A model generated the notes under the pieces. It did no database searches. It had not been told where the DNA came from and was given only the letters and a program-made list of their open reading frames with translations. From the NCBI GenBank assembly GCA_017549335.1, contig JAFYVB010000029.1:1-64000 (forward strand): 64,000 nt of DNA, written 5' to 3'. Both the position numbers and the translations under genes were made by a program. The stretch is from Clostridia bacterium (GTDB lineage Bacteria > Bacillota > Clostridia > Christensenellales > Aristaeellaceae). This document shows, one piece after another, positions 50,968 through 64,000 of this stretch (positions are counted from its first letter, which is position 1; each line of letters opens with the position of its first letter).

Positions 50968-51068
50968 GCAAATCCCTCCTTCTGCGTTCATTATGTCCTG
51001 TCCAAAAATAAATAATGCACGAAGATTTGGGCATCATAGCGGGTAGCAACTGCAAGGAGTGTGCTTTG

Positions 51069-52490
51069 ATGAAAGAAGACAGGGCCTATCTGAAAGGATT
51101 CATCCCTTATGCACTGGCAGCATTGCTGATCAGTCTGGTAGGCGGATTTTCTGCTGTTCTGGGGCCTGCCTTTGTACAGGACCTAGGCATTGCTTACAAC
51201 AATACCACCTGGACAGCGCTGGCGCAGGCCACGTCCACCGCAGCCTTCGCGCCCATTTTGGGCAAGCTGGGCGATGTATTGGGACGAAAGGTTACGCTGC
51301 TGGGAGGCATCATCATCTATACTTTGGGCAATGTCCTGGCGGCACTTTCATCTTCACTTGGAGTCATGCTCATTGCCCGTTTTATCGTGGGCGTAGGCGC
51401 CGCAGCAGTGGCGCCGGTAGTTCTGTCCTACATTGTCACGGAATTTCCGCCTGCCAAAGTTGCTAAAGGGTTTTCCATGTATATGCTGATTTCCAGCGCT
51501 GCCGTGGTCTTCGGCCCTGCGCTGAGCGGTCTGATCATCAGCGCATACGGTTGGCGGGCGATGGTCTGGGTTTGCGTAGCGCTGTGCGTTATTGTGTTCA
51601 TTCCGTGCGCGCTTTCGGGGGACAAAAAGACGACGCTCCGCAAAAAGCTTGACCACTTTGACGGTTTGGGCGCAGTGCTGGTGCTGATTTTCTTCAGCCT
51701 GACGCTATGCATTCCTTCCTTCGGGCAGAACTTTGGCTGGAAATCGTCTGCCTTCCTTGTTGTGCTGGTCGCGGCGGTTATTGCATTCGTTGGACTGGTA
51801 TTGGCTGAGTGCAGGGCCGTCCACCCTATCCTCCCCGGAAGCTTTATGCGGCGCCGCGCCTTCATTCTGAGCGTTCTGGCGCTGACGCTCACCCAGGGAC
51901 TGATGCAGGCCAACATGACAAACACCATCATATTTGTAAATTACACTCAACCGACCAACGACGTGATCTCCGCTTATGCCATTTCAGTGATGTATCTGGG
52001 AATGTCTTTGGGCTCGGTTCTGCTGGGGCCTTTGGCAGACAGGTTTGAACCCCGAACGGTTCTGACCATCTCGCTGCTTTTAACGGGAATCAGCTGCGCA
52101 CTGCTGCTTCTGTTTACGGCTGATGCCTCCCTACTGCTGCTGATGGCTTCACTGGGGCTTTTGGGCTTTGGTTTGGGCGGAAACGGCACCATCTTCATGA
52201 AAGTGGCGCTGAGCGATCTCCCCGCCGACAAAGCAGGCGCAGCCACCGGAACCTACGGCCTGTTCCGTGATCTCGCCGCGCCCTTTGGCGTGGCGGTGCT
52301 GGTTCCCCTGTTTACCAACAGCATTACCGACTACACAGCGCAGGGCATAACTGAAGCGGACGCTGCTGTCCGTGCCATTCACACACTGTCAGTGATCGAA
52401 ATTATCTGTGTGGCCGCAGGCATCCTTGTAGTGCTGATGCTGCCCCGCATCCATCATGAAAGGAGACGTCATCATGCGTCTGAAAAATAA
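51069..52490 (+). CDS. Major facilitator superfamily transporter, probable 14-helix drug/proton type
   Basis: A 473-residue MFS protein. Many hydrophobic segments occur along the length, with the motif A loop GKLGDVLGRKVTLLGG near residue 62 and the motif C-like SAAVVFGPALSGLIISAYGWRAM (in parts). The length and the layout suggest the DHA2 (EmrB/QacA) group of proton-driven exporters with 14 helices. The substrate is unknown. ATG at 51069 is chosen because AAGGAG lies 9 bases upstream. It overlaps the SDR gene by 17 bases, so a substrate modified by that enzyme is possible. Confidence 0.87.
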   Translation: MKEDRAYLKGFIPYALAALLISLVGGFSAVLGPAFVQDLGIAYNNTTWTALAQATSTAAFAPILGKLGDVLGRKVTLLGGIIIYTLGNVLAALSSSLGVMLIARFIVGVGAAAVAPVVLSYIVTEFPPAKVAKGFSMYMLISSAAVVFGPALSGLIISAYGWRAMVWVCVALCVIVFIPCALSGDKKTTLRKKLDHFDGLGAVLVLIFFSLTLCIPSFGQNFGWKSSAFLVVLVAAVIAFVGLVLAECRAVHPILPGSFMRRRAFILSVLALTLTQGLMQANMTNTIIFVNYTQPTNDVISAYAISVMYLGMSLGSVLLGPLADRFEPRTVLTISLLLTGISCALLLLFTADASLLLLMASLGLLGFGLGGNGTIFMKVALSDLPADKAGAATGTYGLFRDLAAPFGVAVLVPLFTNSITDYTAQGITEADAAVRAIHTLSVIEIICVAAGILVVLMLPRIHHERRRHHASEK

Positions 52491-53271
52491 GGTGATCCTT
52501 GTAACTGCCTCTACGCGGGGCATCGGTCTTTCCATTGTAAAAGCATGCGCGAAAGAAGGCGCCATCGTCTGCATAGCAGCACGCAACCTTGAGAAAGCGC
52601 AAACCGTCGCCGATCAGCTCCATGCGGAAGGCGGACTCGTCCACTGTGTCTACAACGACGCAACCAAGCCGGAAACCTTTGTTTCCATGGTAGAAGACAC
52701 CGTGCGGAAGGCCGGGCGCATCGACGTGCTGGTGAATAACTTCGGCACCTCCGACCCCGGAAAGGACGTGGACTTCTCCCGCACCGATCCGGAGGTATTC
52801 ATGAACACCGTACAGTTGAATCTGCGCAGCGTATTCATGGCAAGTCAGGCAGCAGCGAAACATATGGCTTCGCAGGGCGGAGGCAGCATCATCAACATCT
52901 CTTCTGTCGGCGGCGCAGTGCCTGATATTTCCCAGATCGCCTACGGCACCGGCAAAGCAGCAATCAACTATCTTACCAAGCTGATTGCTGTGCATGAAGC
53001 AAAGCATCACATCCGCTGCAACGCAGTAATGCCCGGCATGACCGCAACCGAAGCGGTAACGCAGCATTTGAGTGATGATTTCAGATCTCTGTTTCTCAAA
53101 CACATCCCGCTCAGCCGAATCGGTCAGCCGGAAGAGATCGCCGCGGCTGTCGTCTATTTCGCCGGCGATGAATCCGCCTATACCACCGGACAGGTTATCA
53201 GTGTATCCGGCGGTTTTGGCCTGGCAACGCCTCTGTACGGAGAATTATCCGGAAAGGACGAGCGTCGTTGA
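52474..53271 (+). CDS. Short-chain dehydrogenase/reductase
   Basis: A 265-residue classical SDR. The nucleotide motif is TASTRGIGLS (TxxxxGxG), followed by NNFGTS, the catalytic serine in INISSVGG, and Y-x3-K in AYGTGKAA. The end AYTTGQVISVSGGFGL is typical. The basic residue after the glycine motif that would decide between NADP and NAD is seen in AARNLEKA, favouring NADP. The substrate is unknown. The start at 52474 is 7 bases after AAAGGAGA. It is translationally linked to the MFS gene and followed by a terminator. Confidence 0.92.
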   Translation: MRLKNKVILVTASTRGIGLSIVKACAKEGAIVCIAARNLEKAQTVADQLHAEGGLVHCVYNDATKPETFVSMVEDTVRKAGRIDVLVNNFGTSDPGKDVDFSRTDPEVFMNTVQLNLRSVFMASQAAAKHMASQGGGSIINISSVGGAVPDISQIAYGTGKAAINYLTKLIAVHEAKHHIRCNAVMPGMTATEAVTQHLSDDFRSLFLKHIPLSRIGQPEEIAAAVVYFAGDESAYTTGQVISVSGGFGLATPLYGELSGKDERR

Positions 53272-53565: not shown

Positions 53566-55509
53566 ATGGCAAAAAAAGTAGATCGCGCATTCCGACATGC
53601 CGCACTGCTATTGATTTATGATTCACTGGTGCTGACATCTATAATACTGGCACTTTCCCTGAGCGATGACGTGATTTTTTCATTTGACTGGTTTATGCCC
53701 AGCGTCATAACCGGTCTTGTCGCAATCATGGGAATGCGCTGTCTGTTCAAACTGTATAATGCAGTATGGCGCTACAGCAGTACCGCGCTCTATTTCCGTC
53801 TGCTGTTTGCAGATTTGTGCGGCGGCCTTATTTGGGCTGCAATCAATCAGTATTATTTGGATATCGTGGTGGTCTTCCTACACATTCTGTCCATCGTTGC
53901 CCTCAATACGCTGGTAACCATCGGCACAAGAATGTTCTACCAATATCTGTACGACTACAATTCAAAGGGCTCCCGGCTCGCCAATCTGCTGCGCAGAGTT
54001 GCAAAAGTATTTGGACGCCCCATTGAAATTGAGGCCAAAAACCACCGGGTCAACATCGCCATTTTGGGTGCCGGACGCGTCGGCGTCATGCTGGCGGAGG
54101 AACTGGTCAAAAACCCCTCTGCCATTTACCAGCCTTGCTGTTTTCTGGAGCACAGCAGTCAGAAAATCGGCCGCACCATAAACGACATTCCTATTCTCGA
54201 CGAATGCAAGGTCACTCAGGCCACGCTGGAGGAATACGGCATCCGGGAGGTTGTATTTGCCATTCCCGGTCTGGATCCCTCCCGCAAACAGGAGTTGTAC
54301 GAGCGCTATAAGCAAATGGGCTGCGAAATTAAGGTCTATGACTATGCAACCCCTCAGAGCGTCTCCGGCGGCAAGCGTCAGCTGCGCGAATTCAGCATTG
54401 AAGAGCTGTTGTTCCGTCAGCCCAAATCCTTTATCGAAAGCAGGACAGCCGACTACTACAAAGGCAAAACCGTGCTGATCTCTGGCGGCGGCGGTTCCAT
54501 CGGAAGCGAGCTTTGCCGCCAGGTTGCCCAAATGGCGCCCAATAAAATCATCATTCTGGACGTATACGAAAACGGCGCGTACGATATTCAGCAGGAACTG
54601 AAGAACACCTACGGCAGCGAACTGAATCTGGTTGTGGAGATCTGTTCCGTCTGTGACAGAGAACAGATTAACAAGCTGCTTGATCACCATAAACCCCAGA
54701 TCATCCTGCATGCAGCAGCCCACAAGCACGTGCCGCTGATGGAGCGCAACTGCATCGAGGCTGTCAAAAACAACGTATTCGGCACGCTGAACATGGTGGA
54801 GGCCGCGGAAGAACACGGCGTTGAAAAGTTCATCATGGTTTCCACCGACAAAGCGGTGAATCCAACCAATGTTATGGGCGCCACCAAGCGCATGTGCGAA
54901 ATGATCGTGCAAAGCAGAACTGCCGGAAAAACCGCCTTCAGCGCTACACGTTTCGGCAATGTTCTGGGATCGAACGGCAGCGTAATCCCCCTCTTCAAGC
55001 GTCAGATCGCCAACGGAGGCCCGATCACGCTGACGGATAAACGCATCATCCGTTACTTTATGACCATCCCCGAAGCCAGCCAGCTGGTGCTTACCTCGGG
55101 CGCCATGGCAAAAAGCGGCGAGCTTTTCGTTCTTGACATGGGACAGCCCGTGAAAATTCTGCAGCTGGCCGAAAACATGATCCGTCTTTCCGGCTTTGAG
55201 CCTTACAAGGATATCAATATCGTGGAAATCGGCCTGCGTCCCGGTGAGAAGCTTTACGAAGAGCTGCTGATCAAGAGCGAAACCTTGAGCAAAACCGAAA
55301 ACAGCATGATTTTCATCGAGCGCGATACACCCTGTACCGCCGGGGAAATCGCCGAAAAGCTTGAAATTCTTCAGCAGGCCATAGACACCGGCAGGAATTC
55401 CAGCGTACGCCGCGCATTGCAGCAGGTTGTTCCCACCTATAAAAATCCCGAAGAAATCAACACCCTTGCAGATCAGTCCGACGAAATGCAGCAGGTGTAT
55501 ACCGCCTGA
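53566..55509 (+). CDS. Membrane nucleotide-sugar 4,6-dehydratase (CapD/PglF/WbpM type)
   Basis: A 647-residue protein with four N-terminal membrane helices (about residues 12-130), a CoA-binding-like Rossmann domain (NIAILGAGRVGVMLAEEL near 165) and a C-terminal SDR domain with GGGGSIGSELCRQ near residue 307 and STDKAVNPTNVMGATKRM near 425, the PglF/WbpM signature. It should convert a UDP-HexNAc (probably UDP-GlcNAc) to the 4-keto-6-deoxy sugar, the first step to bacillosamine-like amino sugars. It opens the glycan locus. The aminotransferase encoded next would act on its product. Confidence 0.92.
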   Translation: MAKKVDRAFRHAALLLIYDSLVLTSIILALSLSDDVIFSFDWFMPSVITGLVAIMGMRCLFKLYNAVWRYSSTALYFRLLFADLCGGLIWAAINQYYLDIVVVFLHILSIVALNTLVTIGTRMFYQYLYDYNSKGSRLANLLRRVAKVFGRPIEIEAKNHRVNIAILGAGRVGVMLAEELVKNPSAIYQPCCFLEHSSQKIGRTINDIPILDECKVTQATLEEYGIREVVFAIPGLDPSRKQELYERYKQMGCEIKVYDYATPQSVSGGKRQLREFSIEELLFRQPKSFIESRTADYYKGKTVLISGGGGSIGSELCRQVAQMAPNKIIILDVYENGAYDIQQELKNTYGSELNLVVEICSVCDREQINKLLDHHKPQIILHAAAHKHVPLMERNCIEAVKNNVFGTLNMVEAAEEHGVEKFIMVSTDKAVNPTNVMGATKRMCEMIVQSRTAGKTAFSATRFGNVLGSNGSVIPLFKRQIANGGPITLTDKRIIRYFMTIPEASQLVLTSGAMAKSGELFVLDMGQPVKILQLAENMIRLSGFEPYKDINIVEIGLRPGEKLYEELLIKSETLSKTENSMIFIERDTPCTAGEIAEKLEILQQAIDTGRNSSVRRALQQVVPTYKNPEEINTLADQSDEMQQVYTA

Positions 55510-55541
55510 AGACACTATATGGAAGAAAGGAACTTTGAAAA

Positions 55542-56780
55542 ATGAAGCCTTTTGAAAAGAAAGTATGGCTGTCCTCCCCCACGATGCACGGGGATGAGCT
55601 GAAGTATATCACCGAAGCCTACGAAACCAACTGGATGAGCACGGTAGGTAAAAACATCAACGAAGTTGAGCGTCTTGCCTGTGAAAAGATCGGCTGCAAG
55701 TATGCTGTAGCGCTTTCCGCCGGTACCGCCGGTCTGCATCTTGCCATGAAGCTGGCCGGCATTCGTCCCGGTGATAAGGTATTCTGCTCCGACATGACCT
55801 TTGCCGCCACCGTGAATCCCATCGTCTATGAAGGTGGTGTGCCGGTATTCATCGACAGCGAACGCGACACATGGAATATGGATCCGGCCGCCCTCAAAAA
55901 GGCTTTTGAAATGTATCCCGAAGTCAAGGTCGTTGTGATCGTCAACCTGTACGGCGTACCGGCAAAGCTGGATGAGATTTGCGCCATCTGTGAAGAGCAC
56001 AACGCCGTATTGATCGAAGACGCCGCCGAATCCATGGGCGCTACCTACAAAGGTCGTCAGACCGGCACCTTCGGCGCGTACAATGTGATCTCTTTCAACG
56101 GCAACAAGATCATCACCGGTTCCTCCGGCGGTATGCTGCTGACCGATGATCTGGATGCTGCAAACTCTGTACGCAAGTGGTCCACCCAAAGCCGTGAAAA
56201 CGCCCCCTGGTACCAGCACGAAGAATTGGGTTACAATTACCGTATGAGCAACGTCATCGCCGGCGTTGTACGCGGACAGTTCCCCTATCTGGATGAGCAC
56301 ATCGCCCAGAAAAAAGCCATCTATATGCGCTATAAGGAAGGGCTGAAGGATCTGCCCGTATCCATGAATCCTTATATGGAAGACATCATGGAGCCCAATT
56401 TCTGGCTCTCCTGCCTGCTGATCGATGAAAGCGCTATGTGCAAGCAGGTGCGCAGCGACAGTGAAGCGGCCTACATCAAAGAACCCGGCAAGACCTGCCC
56501 CACCGAGATTCTGGAAAAGCTCGCCGCCTACAATGCCGAAGGCCGTCCCATCTGGAAGCCCATGCATATGCAGCCCATTTATAGGATGCATCCCTTTGTC
56601 ACCGTCCACGGCAGCGGCCGGTGTCTGAGCAATGCGTACATTAACACCGGTAAAGCCCCCTGCGTGAACGAGGATATTTTCCACCGCGGTCTGTGCCTGC
56701 CCAGCGATAACAAGATGACTCCCGAAGAGCAGGATATGATCATCGAGCTGATCCGCAGCTGCTTTGGTAATTGCAATTAA
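55542..56780 (+). CDS. DegT/DnrJ/EryC1-family sugar aminotransferase (PglE-like)
   Basis: A 412-residue PLP enzyme. It starts with KVWLSSPTMHGDELKYITEA and has EDAAESMGATYKG with its PLP-binding aspartate, then SFNGNKIITGSSGGMLL with the Schiff-base lysine K189. The end EDIFHRGLCLPSDNKMTPEEQ is typical of PglE/PseC-like 4-aminotransferases. It should add an amino group at C4 of the keto-sugar made by the preceding dehydratase. The matching acetyltransferase (PglD) is not in the window and may lie downstream. AGAAAGGAA lies before the ATG. Confidence 0.93.
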   Translation: MKPFEKKVWLSSPTMHGDELKYITEAYETNWMSTVGKNINEVERLACEKIGCKYAVALSAGTAGLHLAMKLAGIRPGDKVFCSDMTFAATVNPIVYEGGVPVFIDSERDTWNMDPAALKKAFEMYPEVKVVVIVNLYGVPAKLDEICAICEEHNAVLIEDAAESMGATYKGRQTGTFGAYNVISFNGNKIITGSSGGMLLTDDLDAANSVRKWSTQSRENAPWYQHEELGYNYRMSNVIAGVVRGQFPYLDEHIAQKKAIYMRYKEGLKDLPVSMNPYMEDIMEPNFWLSCLLIDESAMCKQVRSDSEAAYIKEPGKTCPTEILEKLAAYNAEGRPIWKPMHMQPIYRMHPFVTVHGSGRCLSNAYINTGKAPCVNEDIFHRGLCLPSDNKMTPEEQDMIIELIRSCFGNCN

Positions 56781-56804
56781 ATTCGAAAAGCGGAGGATTG
56801 TGGA

Positions 56805-57878
56805 ATGAACATCAAACGTAAACTTGATAAATTATATAAAGATTTTTATGATGTGATGCGTCGGCATTCTGCCCAAAAACGCAGAATCAAACAATTTCAA
56901 AAGCTGACTCATCCCGGCGTATTAACAAAAGAACAGGAATCCAAAGTTAAGGCCTATTTTTCTCCTTACTCCAAACTTAACATGGTATTTCATAATTTCT
57001 ACACAGAGAAAACGGGTATATTCTGTGAAGATTATATCCCCCAGGATGTGTATGTAGGATACATTGATCCGTATTTTAATGATATCCGCGCCGCTGAATA
57101 TTTGGATAATAAGTGCTATTTCGGCATGCTGTACAATCAAATTCCCCAACCGGAGACTGTCATTAAACGTATTAACAAGCTATGGCTTAATAAGAATAAC
57201 GAACCTCTCACGCAGGAACAAATCAAATCAATCTTGAATAATGAACCTGACAGCGTTTTTCTGAAGGAAGCTGTGACATCTTCCGGTGGTCATGGTGTTG
57301 TATACATAGAAAAGAGCCCCGATACGTATGCCAAGTTGATGCAAGCTGCCGAACGTATTCCCACAGACCTCATTGTACAGCGCGGCGTAGTACAACATGC
57401 AGATATCGCCAAACTTAATAATAGTTCAGTCAATACTTTGCGCATATACTCAGTTCTTGGGCTTGACGGAAATGTGACCGTTTACTCATCGGTATTGCGA
57501 ATGGGCGTCGGAAAAGCTAAAATTGACAACTATAGCTCCGGTGGTTATTCCTGCGGCATCACCAAGGAAGGTAAACTGCAGAAATTTGCATACAACAGTG
57601 CCGGCGAACGCATCGATACGCATCCTACCTCCGGTATTTGCTTTGAAGACTATGTGATTCCCTCTTACGACAAAGCCATTTCGCTGGTCAAAAAAGCCCA
57701 TCCTATCATGCCTCATTTCCGTTCCGTATGTTGGGATATTGCCATATGCGAGGATGGTACGCCCGTAATGATCGAAGCAAATTTGTGCCGCGGCGGTATT
57801 GTATCGCTGCAGTTGAACAATGGGCCAATTTACGGTGCGGATACAAAGAAAATATTGGACGAAGTTTTTCGCAAATAA
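56805..57878 (+). CDS. Sugar-transfer-associated ATP-grasp protein
   Basis: A 357-residue protein with an ATP-grasp domain of the sugar-transfer-associated kind (PF14397-like). Landmarks are FLKEAVTSSGGHGVVYIEK near residue 150, LIVQRGVVQHADIAKLN, VNTLRIYSVLG, SSGGYSCGI and MIEANLCRGG. The N-terminal 100 residues are helical and basic. The ligated substrate is unknown. The gene is visibly more AT-rich than its neighbours, with many AAA, AAT and TTA codons, which suggests separate transfer. GCGGAGG lies ahead of the ATG. Confidence 0.82.
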   Translation: MNIKRKLDKLYKDFYDVMRRHSAQKRRIKQFQKLTHPGVLTKEQESKVKAYFSPYSKLNMVFHNFYTEKTGIFCEDYIPQDVYVGYIDPYFNDIRAAEYLDNKCYFGMLYNQIPQPETVIKRINKLWLNKNNEPLTQEQIKSILNNEPDSVFLKEAVTSSGGHGVVYIEKSPDTYAKLMQAAERIPTDLIVQRGVVQHADIAKLNNSSVNTLRIYSVLGLDGNVTVYSSVLRMGVGKAKIDNYSSGGYSCGITKEGKLQKFAYNSAGERIDTHPTSGICFEDYVIPSYDKAISLVKKAHPIMPHFRSVCWDIAICEDGTPVMIEANLCRGGIVSLQLNNGPIYGADTKKILDEVFRK

Positions 57879-57935
57879 TTGAAGCCATAATATTTCCAAA
57901 AGGTCATGTCATATTGAAAGTGAGGATACCATTTC

Positions 57936-59117
57936 ATGACAAACTATGATAAGCTGCTTGAAAAAGTAAGAGCGCTGGGCATGGACTACCGCTGGGCAGG
58001 GATGTTTGTAAAGAAGCTCAGAGACGACGAAAACGCTTTCCCCGTTGCCGATGAAGAAAAGAAAAAGTGGGCGCTGGAGCGTGGCTTTTATCCCGGCCGC
58101 ATCGAACTGTACGGCCTGACGGAAGAAAACTACCGTAATTATGTGCCGGATTTCAATTATTTCATGCTCCATCCCATGAACAACCACTTCCTCAAGTGGC
58201 TGGATAAAACAACGCTGAAGTATGTGCTCAACAGCAACGGCTGTGAAGATACCATGCCCCAGTACTACGCCTACGTGGAAAACGAACTCTGCGGCGGCCG
58301 TTTCACCTACCTGATGGACTGCCCTGCGGATATTGCCCGCGATAAGGATTTCCTGTGGAATCTGCTTCAGCAGAAAAAGATTCTGGCCATGAAGCCCAAC
58401 TCCGGCACCTCCGGCGGTCTTGGTTTCATCAAGCTTGAAATGCGAAAAGAGGGGCTGTACGAAAACAACAAGCCCATCGATATGACGCGCTTTAACGAGA
58501 TCCTCGAAAGCATGCGCAACTATATCATCACCGAGTATGCCCACCAGCACCATGAGCTTGCTGCCGTATGGCCGGACAGCGAATGCACGCTGCGCGTGAT
58601 CATGTGCAAGGATCCCGCAGTGGATCGCTATGCCCCTACCACATGGAGCTGCGCTGTGTCCTATGCCCGCTTCGGCACCTCCGTCAACGGCGGCGCCAGC
58701 AATCTTTCCTCCGGCGGCGTAGGCGTTGGCTTTGATTTCGAAACCGGCAAGTACAACGATTTCTGCATTCGCTATAAGCGTTACTGCCCCGACGGAAAAT
58801 GGATGCTGGAGAAGCATCCCGATACACAGGTCGAGTGGAAAACTTCCGGCCTGCCCAACTGGCAGCTTGTACGCCGCAAGATCGACGCTCTTTGTCAGCA
58901 TATGTCCTCGCTGGATTATCTGGGACTGGATATCATCATTACCGAAGACGGCATGAAGCTTTGTGAGATCAACTCCCATCCCGCCATGGATTATGAGCAG
59001 ATCATGTGCGGTCCCACGCTGGGCAAAGAAAAAGTCCGCAAATTCTTTGAGCACAAAGGATTGTTCCGTTACGACGAAAAGGCTTTGTACGAAGCCTATG
59101 CCGCCTGTCAGGAATAA
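57936..59117 (+). CDS. Second sugar-locus ATP-grasp-like protein
   Basis: A 393-residue protein distantly related to the preceding one. The ATP-grasp segments are LAMKPNSGTSGGLGFIKLEM near residue 150, YIITEYAHQHHELAAV, CTLRVIMCKDP, SNLSSGGVGVGFDFETG and LGLDIIITEDGMKLCEINSH, which hold the metal-binding E and N. Base composition is like the rest of the window, unlike the preceding gene, so the two are not a recent duplication. The substrate is unknown. Ligation of an amino acid or other acid to a sugar or lipid precursor is conceivable. AAGTGAGGA precedes the ATG. Confidence 0.75.
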   Translation: MTNYDKLLEKVRALGMDYRWAGMFVKKLRDDENAFPVADEEKKKWALERGFYPGRIELYGLTEENYRNYVPDFNYFMLHPMNNHFLKWLDKTTLKYVLNSNGCEDTMPQYYAYVENELCGGRFTYLMDCPADIARDKDFLWNLLQQKKILAMKPNSGTSGGLGFIKLEMRKEGLYENNKPIDMTRFNEILESMRNYIITEYAHQHHELAAVWPDSECTLRVIMCKDPAVDRYAPTTWSCAVSYARFGTSVNGGASNLSSGGVGVGFDFETGKYNDFCIRYKRYCPDGKWMLEKHPDTQVEWKTSGLPNWQLVRRKIDALCQHMSSLDYLGLDIIITEDGMKLCEINSHPAMDYEQIMCGPTLGKEKVRKFFEHKGLFRYDEKALYEAYAACQE

Positions 59118-59143
59118 ATCGAGATTCAGAAAGAGTGAGCGAA

Positions 59144-59896
59144 ATGGAAAATACAACTGTAAAACAGCCGGAAATCCGCACGGATATCCCCGTCCCCCGC
59201 AATTCCCTTTACACCCGCTATATTAAGCGTCTGCTGGACATCGTGCTGAGCGGAACGGCTATTCTGGTGCTGAGCCCGGCGCTGCTGGTCATCTGCATTC
59301 TGGAGCTGATCTACCATGGCCGCCCCATTTTCTATCTTGACAAGCGTCCCGGCAAGGACGGCAAGATCTTCTGCCTTTACAAGTTCAGATCCATGAACAA
59401 CGCCTGTGACGAAAACGGCAAGCTGCTCCATCCCAGCAAGCGCATCACTCCCTTCGGCCGTTTTATCCGCCGCTTCTCCATCGATGAGCTGGGCGGTCTG
59501 TTCAATATTCTCAACGGTACCATGTCTATCATCGGCCCCCGTCCTCTGATGGTGGATTATCTGCCGCTGTACAATGAGCGCCACAAGTACCGTCACGCCG
59601 TCCGTCCCGGCCTTGCCTGCTGGGATCTGAAGAGCGACGGCAAGCTGACCGCGGCCTCCTGGACGTGGAATGCCCAGTTCGAAAATGATATCTACTATGT
59701 GGAAAACGTCAGCTTCTGGCTGGACGTGAAAATGGTTTTCAAAACCGTTCAGGTGGTTTTCTCCAAGAGCGAAATGCGTACCAATTCCGACCGCATCAAG
59801 TTTGACGGCAACAACCTGACCGAAACCAGAACCCGTTCCGAGATCCTCAAAGCTCAGGAAGCCGCCGAAAAAGCCGCTGCCCAGAAGCAGGATTGA
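59144..59896 (+). CDS. Initiating phosphosugar transferase (small monotopic, PglC-like)
   Basis: A 250-residue bacterial sugar transferase. One membrane helix (about residues 27-50, KRLLDIVLSGTAILVLSPAL) is followed by GRPIFYLDKRPGKDGKIF, CLYKFRSMN, RRFSIDELGGLFNILNGTMS and IGPRPLMVDYLP, the core of monophosphate-sugar lipid transferases. It lacks the N-terminal helices of WbaP. It should load the first sugar phosphate onto undecaprenyl phosphate. The C-terminal 25 residues are an alanine-rich charged tail. ATG at 59144 is preferred, but a GTG at 59135 cannot be excluded. Confidence 0.92.
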   Translation: MENTTVKQPEIRTDIPVPRNSLYTRYIKRLLDIVLSGTAILVLSPALLVICILELIYHGRPIFYLDKRPGKDGKIFCLYKFRSMNNACDENGKLLHPSKRITPFGRFIRRFSIDELGGLFNILNGTMSIIGPRPLMVDYLPLYNERHKYRHAVRPGLACWDLKSDGKLTAASWTWNAQFENDIYYVENVSFWLDVKMVFKTVQVVFSKSEMRTNSDRIKFDGNNLTETRTRSEILKAQEAAEKAAAQKQD

Positions 59897-59937
59897 CCCG
59901 TTTCCCCCGCATAGCGTGCATAGGAGAGTGTAAACCA

Positions 59938-61242
59938 ATGCTGAAACTAATCAAGAAAATCTTCGCGTTCGTGGATGACCGCAAGAAGGTGCTGGATCCC
60001 ATTGTCGCGGTGCTGCTGGCCTTCGTACCCTTCCTCCAGCATTACATCGGCATCGTGGATAACGCCGGCTCTACCCTGATGGCGCTCCTTGTGCCTTATC
60101 TGGGGCTTCGTGTGCTGCCCACTCTGCGCACCTTAAAGCTTCGCTCATTTGCTCTGATCTCCGGCTTGATCCTCTTCTTCCTCTACAAGCTTGTTGATCA
60201 CGGCACCTATTTTGTGGAAATCGCGCAGGTCGGCCTGATGATCTTCTATATCGTGTGTGCCATGCAGCACTGCATTGATACCAAAATGCTGAAAAAGGCC
60301 GCGATTTGCATTGCTGCGCTTGCGGGTCTGCTGCTGATCGCGCAGTATTTCTGCTATTTTGTTTTGGGTTTCCACCTGCAGCTGGTTCCCACCCCTTTGC
60401 TTTTGGAAGAATCCGAGCAGTGGATCTTGCTGGCTCAGACCGGAACACACAGCATCACCGGCGTTCAAGGCGATCTGTACAGGCCCAGCGCATTTTTCCT
60501 CGAGCCTTCGCATTTGTTCATGTACGGCTTCCCCTGCCTGTTCATCTCCCTGTTTGCCCATGAAAACAGGAAGCACAACCGGATCGCTGCCTTGTTGATC
60601 ACCGTCGGTCTGGTTCTTTCCACCTCCGGTATGGGCATTCTGGTTGCAGCCGGCGCATGGGGATTGTATCAGGGCTTGCGAAATAAAGAAGGCAATGATT
60701 TCCGTCTGAAGTATATTCCTTGTAAGGAAATGGTGTTCAGAGTATGCGCCCTTCTTGCGCTGTATGCCGTGCTGTTTATGACGGTACCTTTCATCAACGA
60801 AGGCATTTCCCGCATTTTTATCAGCGAAGCCGGCACCTCCACTGCCATTGACGGCAGAACGGAGCTTGCCATTAGAACTCTGAGAAAAATCGAAAGCACA
60901 TCGGTCATTCAAAAACTGTTCGGTAGTTCGGATACTCTTGAAGGAATCACCCACAATATGCCAGGCTATATGGCTACGGTGTATAAATACGGATTCATCG
61001 GCATTATTCTGTCCTATTCTTTCTATGCAATCGGTTTGTTCAAGCTGAATATGGCATATTTCTGGCTCTCTGCCATTCTGATCCTGACGTCCTTCTTCAG
61101 CGCTCATACCCATGGAACGTTCTTCATGCTGTTCTATGTGCTGCTGCTTGTCGAAGGACATCGCTCCTCAGGCGAAAGCTGGCTGCTTGCCGAACTGAAG
61201 TTTCTGTTCAACACCCTGTTTAAGAAACGGACTACGAAATAA
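59938..61242 (+). CDS. O-antigen ligase/polymerase-like membrane protein (Wzy-like)
   Basis: A 434-residue integral membrane protein with about ten hydrophobic segments. A large extracytoplasmic loop lies in the middle (around residues 165-190, with DLYRPSAFFLEPSHLFMYG), followed by GLVLSTSGMGILVAAGA. The RPSAFFLEPSH pattern resembles the loop of O-antigen polymerases and ligases. It probably polymerises the repeat unit or joins it to another molecule. Such proteins are poorly conserved, so the assignment rests on topology, loop motif and neighbours. The ATG at 59938 follows AGGAGAG. Confidence 0.82.
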   Translation: MLKLIKKIFAFVDDRKKVLDPIVAVLLAFVPFLQHYIGIVDNAGSTLMALLVPYLGLRVLPTLRTLKLRSFALISGLILFFLYKLVDHGTYFVEIAQVGLMIFYIVCAMQHCIDTKMLKKAAICIAALAGLLLIAQYFCYFVLGFHLQLVPTPLLLEESEQWILLAQTGTHSITGVQGDLYRPSAFFLEPSHLFMYGFPCLFISLFAHENRKHNRIAALLITVGLVLSTSGMGILVAAGAWGLYQGLRNKEGNDFRLKYIPCKEMVFRVCALLALYAVLFMTVPFINEGISRIFISEAGTSTAIDGRTELAIRTLRKIESTSVIQKLFGSSDTLEGITHNMPGYMATVYKYGFIGIILSYSFYAIGLFKLNMAYFWLSAILILTSFFSAHTHGTFFMLFYVLLLVEGHRSSGESWLLAELKFLFNTLFKKRTTK

Positions 61243-61255
61243 CGGTGAACACACA

Positions 61256-62689
61256 ATGAGTGAAAAAACACGCAGAGGAAGCACGGGATTGGCGCTGAAA
61301 GCGGGCTTCTGGTATGTGATCAGTACCTTTTTGGTAAAAGCCATCTCTTTTATCACAACGCCGATCTTTTCCCGCCTGATGGACAACACATCCTACGGTG
61401 AATTCTCAAATTACGCAAGCTGGCAGGGAACACTGCTGATCATTACCGGTGCCGAGCTTTACAACACCTTGAGCCGGGCGTATTATGACTATAAAGAGGA
61501 CTATGACAAATACGTTTCCTCTGTAGCTGTATTCAGTTGCATCCTGACAGCTTCTATATATGTAATGTTCCTGCTCTGCGGCAGCTGGCTCTACAAAATC
61601 GTTTCCATTCCGCCGCAATTTGTGCACATTATGTTTTTCACGCTGACCTTCCAATCCTGCAAACAGATCTATCTTGCAAAGGAAAGAACGCTCTATCGCT
61701 ATAAGTCCGTTGCTGCGATCTCCTTTATCAGTTTGATCGTTCCCACGCTTATTTCGGTTGTGTTGGTTATCCTCGCTCCAGCGCAGCAACGTCTTGGCGC
61801 CCGCATTTACGGCTTCTATACACCCTGGTCTGTTATCGGCTTGGTCTGCCTTATTGTCATGCTGCTTCGCGGCAGGTCCTTCCGTTGGAGCCACTGCAAA
61901 TATGCTATTACCCTTTCCCTGCCCCTGATGGTGCACTATCTTACAGCCTATTTGCTTACCTCCACCAACACCACCGTAACCAAAGGCGTATTGGGCGCTG
62001 AAACCACCGCGGTTGTCAGCATCGCCACCAGTGCTGTGAACATTCTGACCATTCTGTTCCACGCTACCTCGGGGGCGCTGACTACATGGCTGATGGATAA
62101 TCTGGAACAGAAGAAAAACGCATCCGTCCGTCGCGGTCTGCTGTTTTATGTTCTGGGGGTCTCCGCCGTTTCTCTCGGCGTGATCCTGATGGGGCCTGAA
62201 TTGATCTGGATCCTTGGCGGCAGGAAATACGCCGCTTCTCTCACCCTGCTTCCGGGCATGGTGGTTGCCGTTACCATTCAGTCTCTGACCACCGTCTTCA
62301 CGATCATTCTGACTTATCGCAAACGCGTTGCCAAAACAGCAATCTATACTGCTGTCGTGGCAGGCATCAGCATTACCGGAAAGATCCTGCTCCTCCCCGT
62401 CTTCGGTGTCGAAATTCTACCTTGGATCAACATTATCGCTTTCGGCTCACTGTTCTTTATTAACTATCTGTTGGTTAGAAAGACAGGCGACGCGCCCGTG
62501 ATCAACCTAAAGATCTTCTGTTTCTGCATCCTGTTGCTGGCGCTTCTCATCGTTTTGTCCGGTCACCTGTATGCTCACTCCCTTGTTCGCTATGCCATCA
62601 TTTGTTGTGCAGCTATTTCAGTACTGTTTGTAGCTTATAAAAAGCGCTCGCTTATTATAAAACTGCTTAAAAAGAAGCTGAAGAAATAG
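61256..62689 (+). CDS. Oligosaccharide flippase (Wzx/MurJ-Oat-like MOP superfamily)
   Basis: A 477-residue membrane protein with 12 or more predicted helices. It starts with KAGFWYVISTFLVKAISFIT and IFSRLMDNTSYGEFSNYASW, typical of polysaccharide biosynthesis flippases of the MOP superfamily. Such proteins move lipid-linked repeat units across the membrane for polymerisation. It lies 13 bases after the polymerase-like gene. The ribosome binding site (GGTGA) is weak, so coupling is likely. Confidence 0.92.
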   Translation: MSEKTRRGSTGLALKAGFWYVISTFLVKAISFITTPIFSRLMDNTSYGEFSNYASWQGTLLIITGAELYNTLSRAYYDYKEDYDKYVSSVAVFSCILTASIYVMFLLCGSWLYKIVSIPPQFVHIMFFTLTFQSCKQIYLAKERTLYRYKSVAAISFISLIVPTLISVVLVILAPAQQRLGARIYGFYTPWSVIGLVCLIVMLLRGRSFRWSHCKYAITLSLPLMVHYLTAYLLTSTNTTVTKGVLGAETTAVVSIATSAVNILTILFHATSGALTTWLMDNLEQKKNASVRRGLLFYVLGVSAVSLGVILMGPELIWILGGRKYAASLTLLPGMVVAVTIQSLTTVFTIILTYRKRVAKTAIYTAVVAGISITGKILLLPVFGVEILPWINIIAFGSLFFINYLLVRKTGDAPVINLKIFCFCILLLALLIVLSGHLYAHSLVRYAIICCAAISVLFVAYKKRSLIIKLLKKKLKK

Positions 62690-62757
62690 CAGAACCTTTC
62701 CGCAACAGGCAAACTCGTGTATCAGTAATTATTATATTTGATAGGAGAACACGCTTC

Positions 62758-63984
62758 ATGAAAGCACTTGTCCTGGCCGGCGGCCTGCCGCAGATCGAGC
62801 TGATCAACCAGCTGAAAGAACGAAACATCACCACCGTACTGTGCGACGGAAACGCTAATGCCCTCGCGCGTCCTTATGCTGATATCTTCTATCAAATCGC
62901 TATTTTTGACGTGGAAGCCGTCAAAGAAGTGGCGGTTAAGGAACAGGTCGATTTTCTGATCACCGTATGTGCCGATCAGGTGCTGCTGATCGTGGCGCAG
63001 GTGTCTGAAATGCTGGGCCTTCCCTGCTATATCGATTACCGCACCGCTCAGCTTGTTTCCGACAAAAAACACATGAAGCGTGTTTTCTGGGAAAACTCCA
63101 TTCCCACTTCCCGCTATGTGGAAATCGATCATCTGGACTGGGATCAAATCAACACGCTGAAATATCCCATGGTAGTCAAGCCCGTGGATGCTTACAGTTC
63201 AAGAGGCGTCCGCAAGGCGCTCAACAAAGAAGAGCTGGAACTGTACTTCAATGAAGCGGCCCAGATCAGCCGTACCGGCGGCGTGATCGTAGAAGAGTTC
63301 GTTTCGGGTGCTGAAATCAGCGTGGACGTGTACGTAGAAGACGGACAGGCCAAGATCCTTTGCGTATCCAACAGCGAAAAGATCAGCGATGCCGACCGCT
63401 TCATCATTTTCCGCGGCCGTTATCCCGTTGCAGCCTCGCAGGAAATCCTTGATAAAATTCAGCGCGTGGCACAGCAGATTGCCGATGCCTTCGGGCTGAA
63501 GAATTCCCCCATGCTGATCCAAATGATCAATGACGGAAAGAACGTTTCCGTGTTGGAATTCTGCGCACGTACCGGCGGCAACATGAAGTATCTGCTGATC
63601 AGAAGAACGTGCGGTTTTGACGTGGTCAAAGCTGTTATCGATCTGACCGTAGGCGAAAAGCCGCATGTGGAGCTGAAGGCGCCCGAAGCAAAGTACATCG
63701 TAAACGATTTCATTTATTGCCATCCCGGTGTGTTTGACCGTTTGGAAGGCTTTGAAGAGCTGAAAGCAGAAGGCGTGCTGACCGATTATTACGCCCTGCG
63801 TCCGCGCGGAATGCAGATCAAAGGCGTTTCCAGCAGCTCTGACCGAATCGCCGGCATGACCATCACCGCCAACAGCCTGGAAGAATTTAACCGGAAGCAT
63901 CGTCATATCGTGGATTCCGTTCGCATCCTGAACGAACAAGGCGAAGATATGATGCGTCACGACCTGCTGCCCGACCTGCTTTAA
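62758..63984 (+). CDS. ATP-grasp carboxylate-amine ligase-like protein
   Basis: A 408-residue ATP-grasp enzyme of the PurK/CarB-like group. The N-terminal pre-ATP-grasp domain (KALVLAGGLPQIELINQLKE) resembles D-Ala-ligase and biotin carboxylase folds. The ATP-binding loop is YPMVVKPVDAYSSRGVRK near residue 142; VIVEEFVSGAEISVDVYVED and VLEFCARTGGNMKY complete the active site. It could join an amino acid to a carboxylate or amino sugar in the glycan. Its substrate is unknown. AGGAGAAC precedes the ATG. The locus probably continues past the window. Confidence 0.87.
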   Translation: MKALVLAGGLPQIELINQLKERNITTVLCDGNANALARPYADIFYQIAIFDVEAVKEVAVKEQVDFLITVCADQVLLIVAQVSEMLGLPCYIDYRTAQLVSDKKHMKRVFWENSIPTSRYVEIDHLDWDQINTLKYPMVVKPVDAYSSRGVRKALNKEELELYFNEAAQISRTGGVIVEEFVSGAEISVDVYVEDGQAKILCVSNSEKISDADRFIIFRGRYPVAASQEILDKIQRVAQQIADAFGLKNSPMLIQMINDGKNVSVLEFCARTGGNMKYLLIRRTCGFDVVKAVIDLTVGEKPHVELKAPEAKYIVNDFIYCHPGVFDRLEGFEELKAEGVLTDYYALRPRGMQIKGVSSSSDRIAGMTITANSLEEFNRKHRHIVDSVRILNEQGEDMMRHDLLPDLL

Positions 63985-64000
63985 TATCCGCATATATTCA

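Follow-up and report, generated by a model that had tools for sequence, protein, structure and literature searches.

An eight-gene operon from a Clostridia bacterium (GenBank assembly GCA_017549335.1, contig JAFYVB010000029.1) combines enzymes of the bacillosamine type with three ATP-grasp proteins, designated AG1, AG2 and AG3. The stretch analyzed, referred to here as the window, comprises bases 1–64000 of this 155152-base contig, which belongs to a genome of 2.09 Mb in 41 contigs; the eight open reading frames (ORFs) lie intact at 53566–63984, all on the forward strand, with intergenic gaps of −4 to 68 bases. Judging from sequence comparisons, the operon is best read, with moderate confidence, as encoding a pathway of the bacillosamine type, with ATP-grasp amide ligases taking the place of the PglD acetyltransferase. 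The UDP-N,N'-diacetylbacillosamine pathway runs PglF–PglE–PglD–PglC. The present operon resembles it in uniting a dehydratase, an aminotransferase and a PglC-like transferase, and differs from it in that no PglD was detected and three ATP-grasp proteins are present. Bacterial amino sugars carry a wide variety of N-acyl groups, and to our knowledge few enzymes have been shown to attach the less common N-acyl acids. The alternation of PglD and ATP-grasp proteins at one gene position gives AG3, and through AG3 the PF14397 family of AG1 and AG2, a concrete testable reaction; it also connects AG3 with a cassette for acid metabolism that includes a conserved 297-residue protein lacking a Pfam match, and Hungatella effluvii DSM 24995 is a named strain in which the AG3 reaction could be tested.

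Alternation of PglD and ATP-grasp genes

Replacement of PglD by AG3 is suggested by a comparison of 38 loci that carry homologs of the window aminotransferase (survey loci and genomes bear L and G numbers, respectively). Carriers amount to 30 of 391 genomes of the class at an E value of 1e-150 or better and eight of 398 genomes of the phylum at 1e-110, the window genome being included in both counts; the set comprises 30 class loci, five phylum loci, the window, L042 and L194. The gene order is frequently aminotransferase, phosphoglycosyl transferase (PGT), X and glycosyltransferases, and Pfam searches with 20 neighboring proteins identified X in most of the loci tested as either PglD (PF17836) or a PylC-like ATP-grasp protein (PF21360 and PF02655). 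X is an AG3 ortholog in L102, and in L194 the gene immediately after the aminotransferase is AG3.

Profile searches assigned PglD to 14 of the 38 loci, an ATP-grasp protein to 12 and neither to 12, with strong matches to both in none (one-sided Fisher P 0.001). The corresponding counts are 13, 11 and 14 with a strict 150-bit cut (P 0.004), 14, 9 and 12 of 35 after removal of the three loci picked for their ATP-grasp genes (P 0.004) and 13, 7 and 10 with one locus per genus and state (P 0.0096); all of these P values are too small because the loci are related, which weakens the case. Six assignments were judgment calls: L130 (93 bits) and L117, where a PylC-like protein scoring 148 bits lies 3 kb away, were counted as PglD; L123 (AG3-like, 134 bits) and L124, in which the gene is the third after the PGT, as ATP-grasp; and L103 (PylC-like, 104 bits) and L125 (PglD, 39 bits) as neither.

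Both states were observed within three genera, in which the PglD loci L118, L126 and L122 are paired with loci carrying AG3 (L102), a PylC-like protein (L099) and the AG3-like protein of L123, respectively. Between L118 and L102 the two preceding genes are 79% (a pyruvyl transferase) and 86% identical, the aminotransferases 70% and the PGTs 45%, as if the transferase changed along with the acyl group. In the window genome, whose completeness of 86% makes absences less secure, no match to PglD_N (PF17836) was found; eight of 14 control genomes match, seven of them over the cutoff. These comparisons suggest that AG3 substitutes for PglD.

Scanning genome contigs with an alignment of AG3 returned 64 loci, of which 40 reach 50% identity and 23 fall below it; L285 has no AG3 identity value and was excluded from the counts. 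Labels of neighboring genes derive from profile and BLAST thresholds applied to automatically called ORFs, and most of the genomes are fragmented. At least five of these loci (L225, L243, L260, L262 and L278) repeat genomes already represented elsewhere in the survey. The genomes are mostly metagenome-assembled genomes (MAGs) labeled as Clostridia families or Bacteroidales, many of them from ruminant gut, and the 40 closer loci include those of a Planctomycetia MAG, a Kiritimatiellae MAG and the strain H. effluvii DSM 24995 (L232). At a threshold of 150 bits PglD is found in none of the 40 (highest score 46) and in 13 of the 35 loci anchored on the aminotransferase (P 1e-5), the two sets consisting of related loci, sharing one contig (L102/L260) and being cut in places by contig ends. 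A PGT lies within four genes upstream of AG3 in 28 of the 40 loci, and in 17 it is the gene immediately before AG3. Of the 40, 25 have a DegT aminotransferase (>60 bits) and nine have rmlA. In a sample of 80 class genomes, PF14397 and AG3 matches lie within 5 kb of each other in six of the nine genomes, besides the window genome, that have both.

The ATP-grasp proteins and the possible source of the acid

AG1 and AG2 are 19% identical and are therefore not recent duplicates. Residues Lys103, Asp311, Glu324 and Asn326 of AG1 are invariant among ten sequences, with Lys155 present in at least 90%, and Lys91, Lys153, Asp332, Glu344 and Asn346 of AG2 are invariant among 32. These lysine, aspartate, glutamate and asparagine residues are presumably the nucleotide and metal ligands typical of ATP-grasp enzymes.

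AG2 recurs at 68–82% identity in nine of the 40 AG3 loci, a count drawn from loci selected for AG3 and weakened by that selection, and the next gene is a PGT in eight of the nine. Among the 398 phylum genomes it was found at that level in its own genome only, the best other match being 37% identical. Homologs of AG1 with 52% identity are present in L238 and L242, which are labeled Bacteroidales and Bacteroidia. The mixed PF14397-type alignment is too diverse for scanning, so AG2 (at least 68%) and AG1 (52%) were seen only in AG3-anchored loci; a single-protein search of the genome contigs with AG1 gave no match, and searching plasmids with AG1 and AG2 yielded only proteins 20–35% identical to them.

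Co-occurrence of the three genes elsewhere, raised in the first-pass annotation of the window, was thus observed in two of the 40 AG3 loci: L238 and L242 share the order AG1, AG2, PGT, Wzy-like gene, acetyltransferase-type gene (in L238 a hexapeptide family member by Pfam) and AG3. The trio is not one fixed unit, because G468, which carries AG3 (74%), falls outside the 44 genomes with a PF14397 match, and because of the low GC content of AG1. The latter is 41.8%, compared with 49–54% for the other seven genes, and AG1 is perhaps a newer arrival in the operon.

More elaborate sets of PF14397-type genes accompany AG3 and AG2 in L231, L240, L244 and L247, each of which has four or five such genes in all (own profile, >100 bits) and an octopine-dehydrogenase-family gene (by BLAST, with Pfam agreement for L231). 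Genes of the opine (octopine/nopaline) dehydrogenase family also adjoin PF14397-type genes in L170 and L206 (Pfam). These associations suggest amino-acid-derived acids in some relatives, and the dehydrogenases of L170, L206 and L231 are a possible source of opine acids. Locus L042 (G044) carries on one strand homologs of the aminotransferase (62%) and the dehydratase (47%), a pair of PF14397-type genes, one of them supported by Pfam, and AlaDh_PNT, PGA_cap and Mur ligase genes, a set that could be a sugar-peptide polymer route. In L165 (G305) two PF14397 matches fall within one ORF of 751 residues, a fused double ligase. Scattering of the ligase genes away from glycan genes, which had been put forward as evidence that would speak against glycan decoration, was encountered in part and for the wider PF14397 family only: a PF14397-type paralog of about 340 residues has no recognized glycan neighbor in the reference set, either in the window genome itself (contig C15, 8717–9325; L051) or in L053, L178 and L182. 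A class III aminotransferase gene precedes this paralog in L178.

AG3 is matched by a different Pfam family, PF13535. Several further ATP-grasp Pfam models match it, among which PF15632, LAL_C2 and PF18130 remain under their cutoffs; the score for LAL_C2, a domain of L-amino acid ligases, is 25.3 bits, against a cutoff of 29.4. Its solved relatives are 4dim, 3vot (an L-amino acid ligase, 1e-15) and PylC (4ffl). It thus resembles BL00235, PylC and 4dim in sequence, and differs in its sub-threshold LAL_C2 score and in its location in a glycan operon.

The neighbors of AG3 suggest that its substrate is an organic acid, either synthesized by the cell or taken up. AG3 has a DctM-family permease gene nearby in 17 of the 40 loci and three or more of the seven cassette genes in 11; three loci have both, and 25 have one or the other. 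The DctM figures are raw counts rather than an enrichment over arbitrary genes. Among the 23 distant AG3 loci (<50% identity) the cassette occurs in 14 and DctM in none. The cassette, as present in H. effluvii DSM 24995 and near AG3 in many of the loci L229–L283, encodes MmgE/PrpD, an aldo-keto reductase, a phosphonopyruvate decarboxylase-like TPP enzyme (TIGR03297, 413 bits, cutoff 312.5), a 300-residue protein, a C-C_Bond_Lyase (PF15617) and the beta and alpha subunits of an Fe-S fumarase. In H. effluvii (L232) it accompanies dehydratase, aminotransferase, PGT, Wzy-like, flippase and AG3 genes. The 297–300-residue protein is matched neither by Pfam models (E 0.001) nor by those of NCBIfam (E 1e-20) and has no solved relative (best E 0.09); it is 64–89% identical across 23 other aligned loci and was found at E 1e-30 in three of the 80 class genomes, the window genome not being one of them.

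Proposed pathway and competing explanations

The gene content, the conserved ligase residues, the alternation of PglD and ATP-grasp genes, the recurrence of AG2 with AG3 and the neighbors of both are observations; from them a pathway is proposed, including its reactions, the order of ligation, the acid, the link to DctM and the target. The dehydratase and aminotransferase would produce a UDP-4-amino-4,6-dideoxy sugar. AG3 would convert a small carboxylic acid into an acyl phosphate and link it to the amino group, the acid being imported in this genome, perhaps via the neighboring DctM permease, and made by the linked enzyme cassette in other genomes. AG2, and here also AG1, would then lengthen the substituent with more acyl or aminoacyl units. 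The PglC-like enzyme would transfer the acylated sugar phosphate onto undecaprenyl phosphate, the flippase would export the lipid-linked sugar, and the Wzy-like protein would polymerize or transfer it.

The first-pass annotation had suggested stepwise decoration with amino acids or other acids, perhaps on the 4-amino group. The ATP-grasp genes at the PglD position, the lack of a PglD_N match and the recurrence of the trio agree with decoration of this kind. Amino acids are not favored as the AG3 substrate, because the neighbors are so often the organic-acid cassette or DctM (25 of 40 loci), and are suggested in some relatives by the opine dehydrogenases. In an improbable extension of this pathway the acid would itself be a member of the chain. 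Given that the operon provides for one sugar and three ligases and includes no glycosyltransferase, each repeat would consist of one amino sugar with a hydroxy acid, or a chain of acids, ligated to its amino group. The Wzy-like enzyme would join the next sugar to that acid, giving a sugar-acid copolymer in which ATP-grasp ligases do the work of glycosyltransferases; the AG3 acid would come from a previously undescribed pathway of the PrpD, C-C lyase, phosphonopyruvate-decarboxylase-like, Fe-S hydratase and 297-residue proteins, or via DctM.

Enzymes of this kind are known, in that ATP-grasp genes for amino-sugar decoration have already been reported or predicted. In the type B flagellin of Clostridium difficile, taurinyl-Ala-Gly is amide-linked to Fuc3N (PMC5207245), and a mutant in a PF13535 ATP-grasp gene, like two other mutants, is without the peptidylamido sugar (PMC5207246, PMC5207245). 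The genes involved (CDR20291_0244–0247) resemble the present operon in pairing a PF13535 ATP-grasp protein with an amino-sugar aminotransferase, and differ in having their own dTDP-Fuc3N route, a FemAB-like acyltransferase, a cyclodeaminase-like enzyme and glycosyltransferases, with one ATP-grasp protein and no PF14397 member named in those descriptions. By Pfam, neither FemAB-like nor cyclodeaminase-like partners occur among the eight operon genes. The TupA-like ATP-grasp domain of Cj1438 from the Campylobacter jejuni capsule amidates glucuronic acid (PMC11800379); it is likewise an ATP-grasp amide ligase acting on a surface glycan, and differs in its TupA-like family and in its target, the carboxyl group of glucuronic acid. 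Linked ATP-grasp peptide ligases have been proposed to act in succession, including in O-antigen and teichuronopeptide systems (PMC4431377). Amino sugars bearing N-linked amino acids, alanopine, malic acid or hydroxy acids are known (PMC10609480, PMC3210612), as is an O-antigen with an O-glycosylated, amide-linked malic acid (PMC3210612). These N-acylated O-antigen sugars are the kind of product expected here; they come from other genera, and the accounts drawn on name no ligase genes. Replacement of PglD, the ATP-grasp trio and the acid cassette were not found in the open-license literature searched.

Several observations weigh against ligases in place of PglD. Neither PglD nor an ATP-grasp gene was found at 12 of the 38 aminotransferase loci, some of which are cut by contig ends. 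L117 holds PglD together with the 148-bit PylC-like match, L124 carries a GNAT besides its PylC-like gene, AG3 is missing from L109, which has the aminotransferase, Wzy-like and flippase genes, and a search at E 1e-20 did not find it in G720. No aminotransferase match appears in the stretch examined at 15 of the 40 AG3 loci, and DctM and a set of three or more cassette genes are both missing from 15 of the 40, among them the trio loci L238 and L242. The excess of AG3 (E 1e-20) in PF14397-positive class genomes (called at E 1e-15) is weak (ten of 44, versus two of 36 negative genomes; P 0.056), as is that of the 297–300-residue protein in AG3-positive genomes (two of 12, versus one of 68 others; P 0.057). 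Single-sequence searches up to E 1 gave no solved relative for AG1 or AG2, and the matches of the PF14397-type profile to solved structures are marginal (best E 0.0022).

An unlikely alternative, which fares best among the competitors, is that the ligases act on a sugar carboxyl group, AG1 and AG2 (perhaps also AG3) forming an amide between a uronic acid and either an amino acid or an amino alcohol. The Cj1438C activity on glucuronic acid (PMC11800379) offers a precedent, and UDP-glucose dehydrogenase-like genes precede the AG1/AG2 pair in L238 and accompany an AG1-like gene in an L. garvieae plasmid cluster. However, Pfam identified no nucleotide-sugar dehydrogenase among the eight window genes, and the presence of AG3 in the PglD position implies an amine acceptor.

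It is rather doubtful that the ATP-grasp proteins synthesize peptides or dipeptides, in the manner of L-amino acid ligases or RimK, with products that are not on the glycan, or that they modify the carrier protein. The match of AG3 to 3vot, the marginal matches of the PF14397-type profile A3 to D-Ala ligase, RimK-type and tubulin ligases, and the PF14397 paralogs outside recognized glycan loci are compatible with such roles, whereas orthologs of AG2 and AG3 lie mostly with PGT, flippase, aminotransferase or sugar genes. Least probable is acetylation of the 4-amino group by an unlinked enzyme, with the ATP-grasp proteins later esterifying or modifying another position: the incomplete genome and the 12 aminotransferase loci with neither gene nearby leave room for it, but no PglD_N match was found in the 86% present and both states alternate within three genera.

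Gene content and surroundings of the operon

The genes of the operon are listed in Table 1 together with the adjoining genes and the cassette. Pfam matches of seven of the eight exceed the family cutoffs, which bears out the gene inventory of the first-pass annotation: a dehydratase, an aminotransferase, a PglC-like transferase, a flippase, two sugar-transfer-associated ATP-grasp proteins (here assigned to PF14397) and one ligase-like ATP-grasp protein. Its report of no conventional glycosyltransferase in the window part of the locus also holds, as no glycosyltransferase family in Pfam matches any of the eight proteins. Compared with a Wzx/Wzy-dependent glycan system, the operon has the flippase, and none of its eight genes encodes a glycosyltransferase to assemble a repeat unit. 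Its polymerase label is retained only as 'Wzy-like', a name resting on gene position and polytopic character, since no Pfam model matches the protein up to E 0.01.

Table 1. Positions of the operon genes, adjoining genes and the acid cassette (contig numbering of the window unless stated)
Feature	Position	Strand	Supporting match
PglF-type membrane-anchored nucleotide-sugar 4,6-dehydratase, 647 residues	53566..55509	+	PF02719 1e-118
PglE/LegC-type PLP aminotransferase, 412 residues	55542..56780	+	PF01041 3e-81
AG1, PF14397 ATP-grasp, 357 residues	56805..57878	+	PF14397 9e-37, 127.2 bits (cutoff 31.4)
AG2, PF14397 ATP-grasp, 393 residues	57936..59117	+	PF14397 4e-24, 85.6 bits (cutoff 31.4)
PglC-like monotopic PGT, 253 residues	59135..59896	+	PF02397 3e-51
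Wzy/O-ligase-like polytopic membrane protein, 449 residues	59893..61242	+	position and hydrophobicity
Wzx-type flippase, 477 residues	61256..62689	+	PF01943 2e-9
AG3, carboxylate-amine ligase-like ATP-grasp, 408 residues	62758..63984	+	PF13535 3e-16
LysR gene	64040-65029	−	
DctM-family permease	65136-66497		PF06808
Seven-gene cassette, L232 (H. effluvii DSM 24995)	11285-18299 of L232		

The dehydratase is assigned to its bacillosamine-pathway step, that of a UDP-GlcNAc 4,6-dehydratase, by family match (PF02719), and the G044 homolog noted above (47% identity) adjoins an aminotransferase and a PF14397-type gene. The best NCBIfam match of the aminotransferase is TIGR04181 at 318 bits, under the cutoff of 420, and its closest solved relatives are 1o61 and 4ztc. 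Those of the PGT are 8e37 and 8g1n, N,N'-diacetylbacillosaminyl-1-phosphate transferase; PGT homologs in G808 and G468 are 73–76% identical. The Wzy-like ORF overlaps that of the PGT by four bases and shows seven hydrophobic segments in a simple Kyte–Doolittle scan, and its homologs in L211, L212 and L109 (37–56% identity) each lie beside the same type of flippase. Flippase homologs in G468, G720 and G808 are 57–60% identical. The genome has 14 GT2 matches, the nearest on the same contig at 83944; between the operon and this position no GT2 match was found among the intervening ORFs that were run, and GT2 was the glycosyltransferase family searched genome-wide.

The sequence past position 64000, which the first-pass annotation had left for inspection, contains the end of the locus. 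A LysR gene on the opposite strand directly follows AG3, so the operon ends at the window edge and does not run on. Beyond the DctM gene are genes for two Wzy_C proteins, a 622-residue protein without a Pfam match and a polysaccharide deacetylase, along with rmlA- and rmlB-like ORFs, names read from sequence rather than from a family search. The LysR and DctM pair (contig 64040-66497) adjoins or lies near glycan genes in several families, and DctM is 70–85% identical in L211, L109, L194, L222, L243 and L251. Upstream of the operon, at 51015-53271 of the window, are genes for an MFS-type transporter (read from sequence) and a 7alpha-hydroxysteroid dehydrogenase (NF049979, over cutoff), 59% and 57% identical versions of which occur near the Wzy-like/flippase pair of L212. 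Further downstream, a very long ORF for a repetitive surface protein extends from contig position 75814 to about 82842 and ends in a hydrophobic tail and a PQTGD-like motif, which is presumably a sorting signal.

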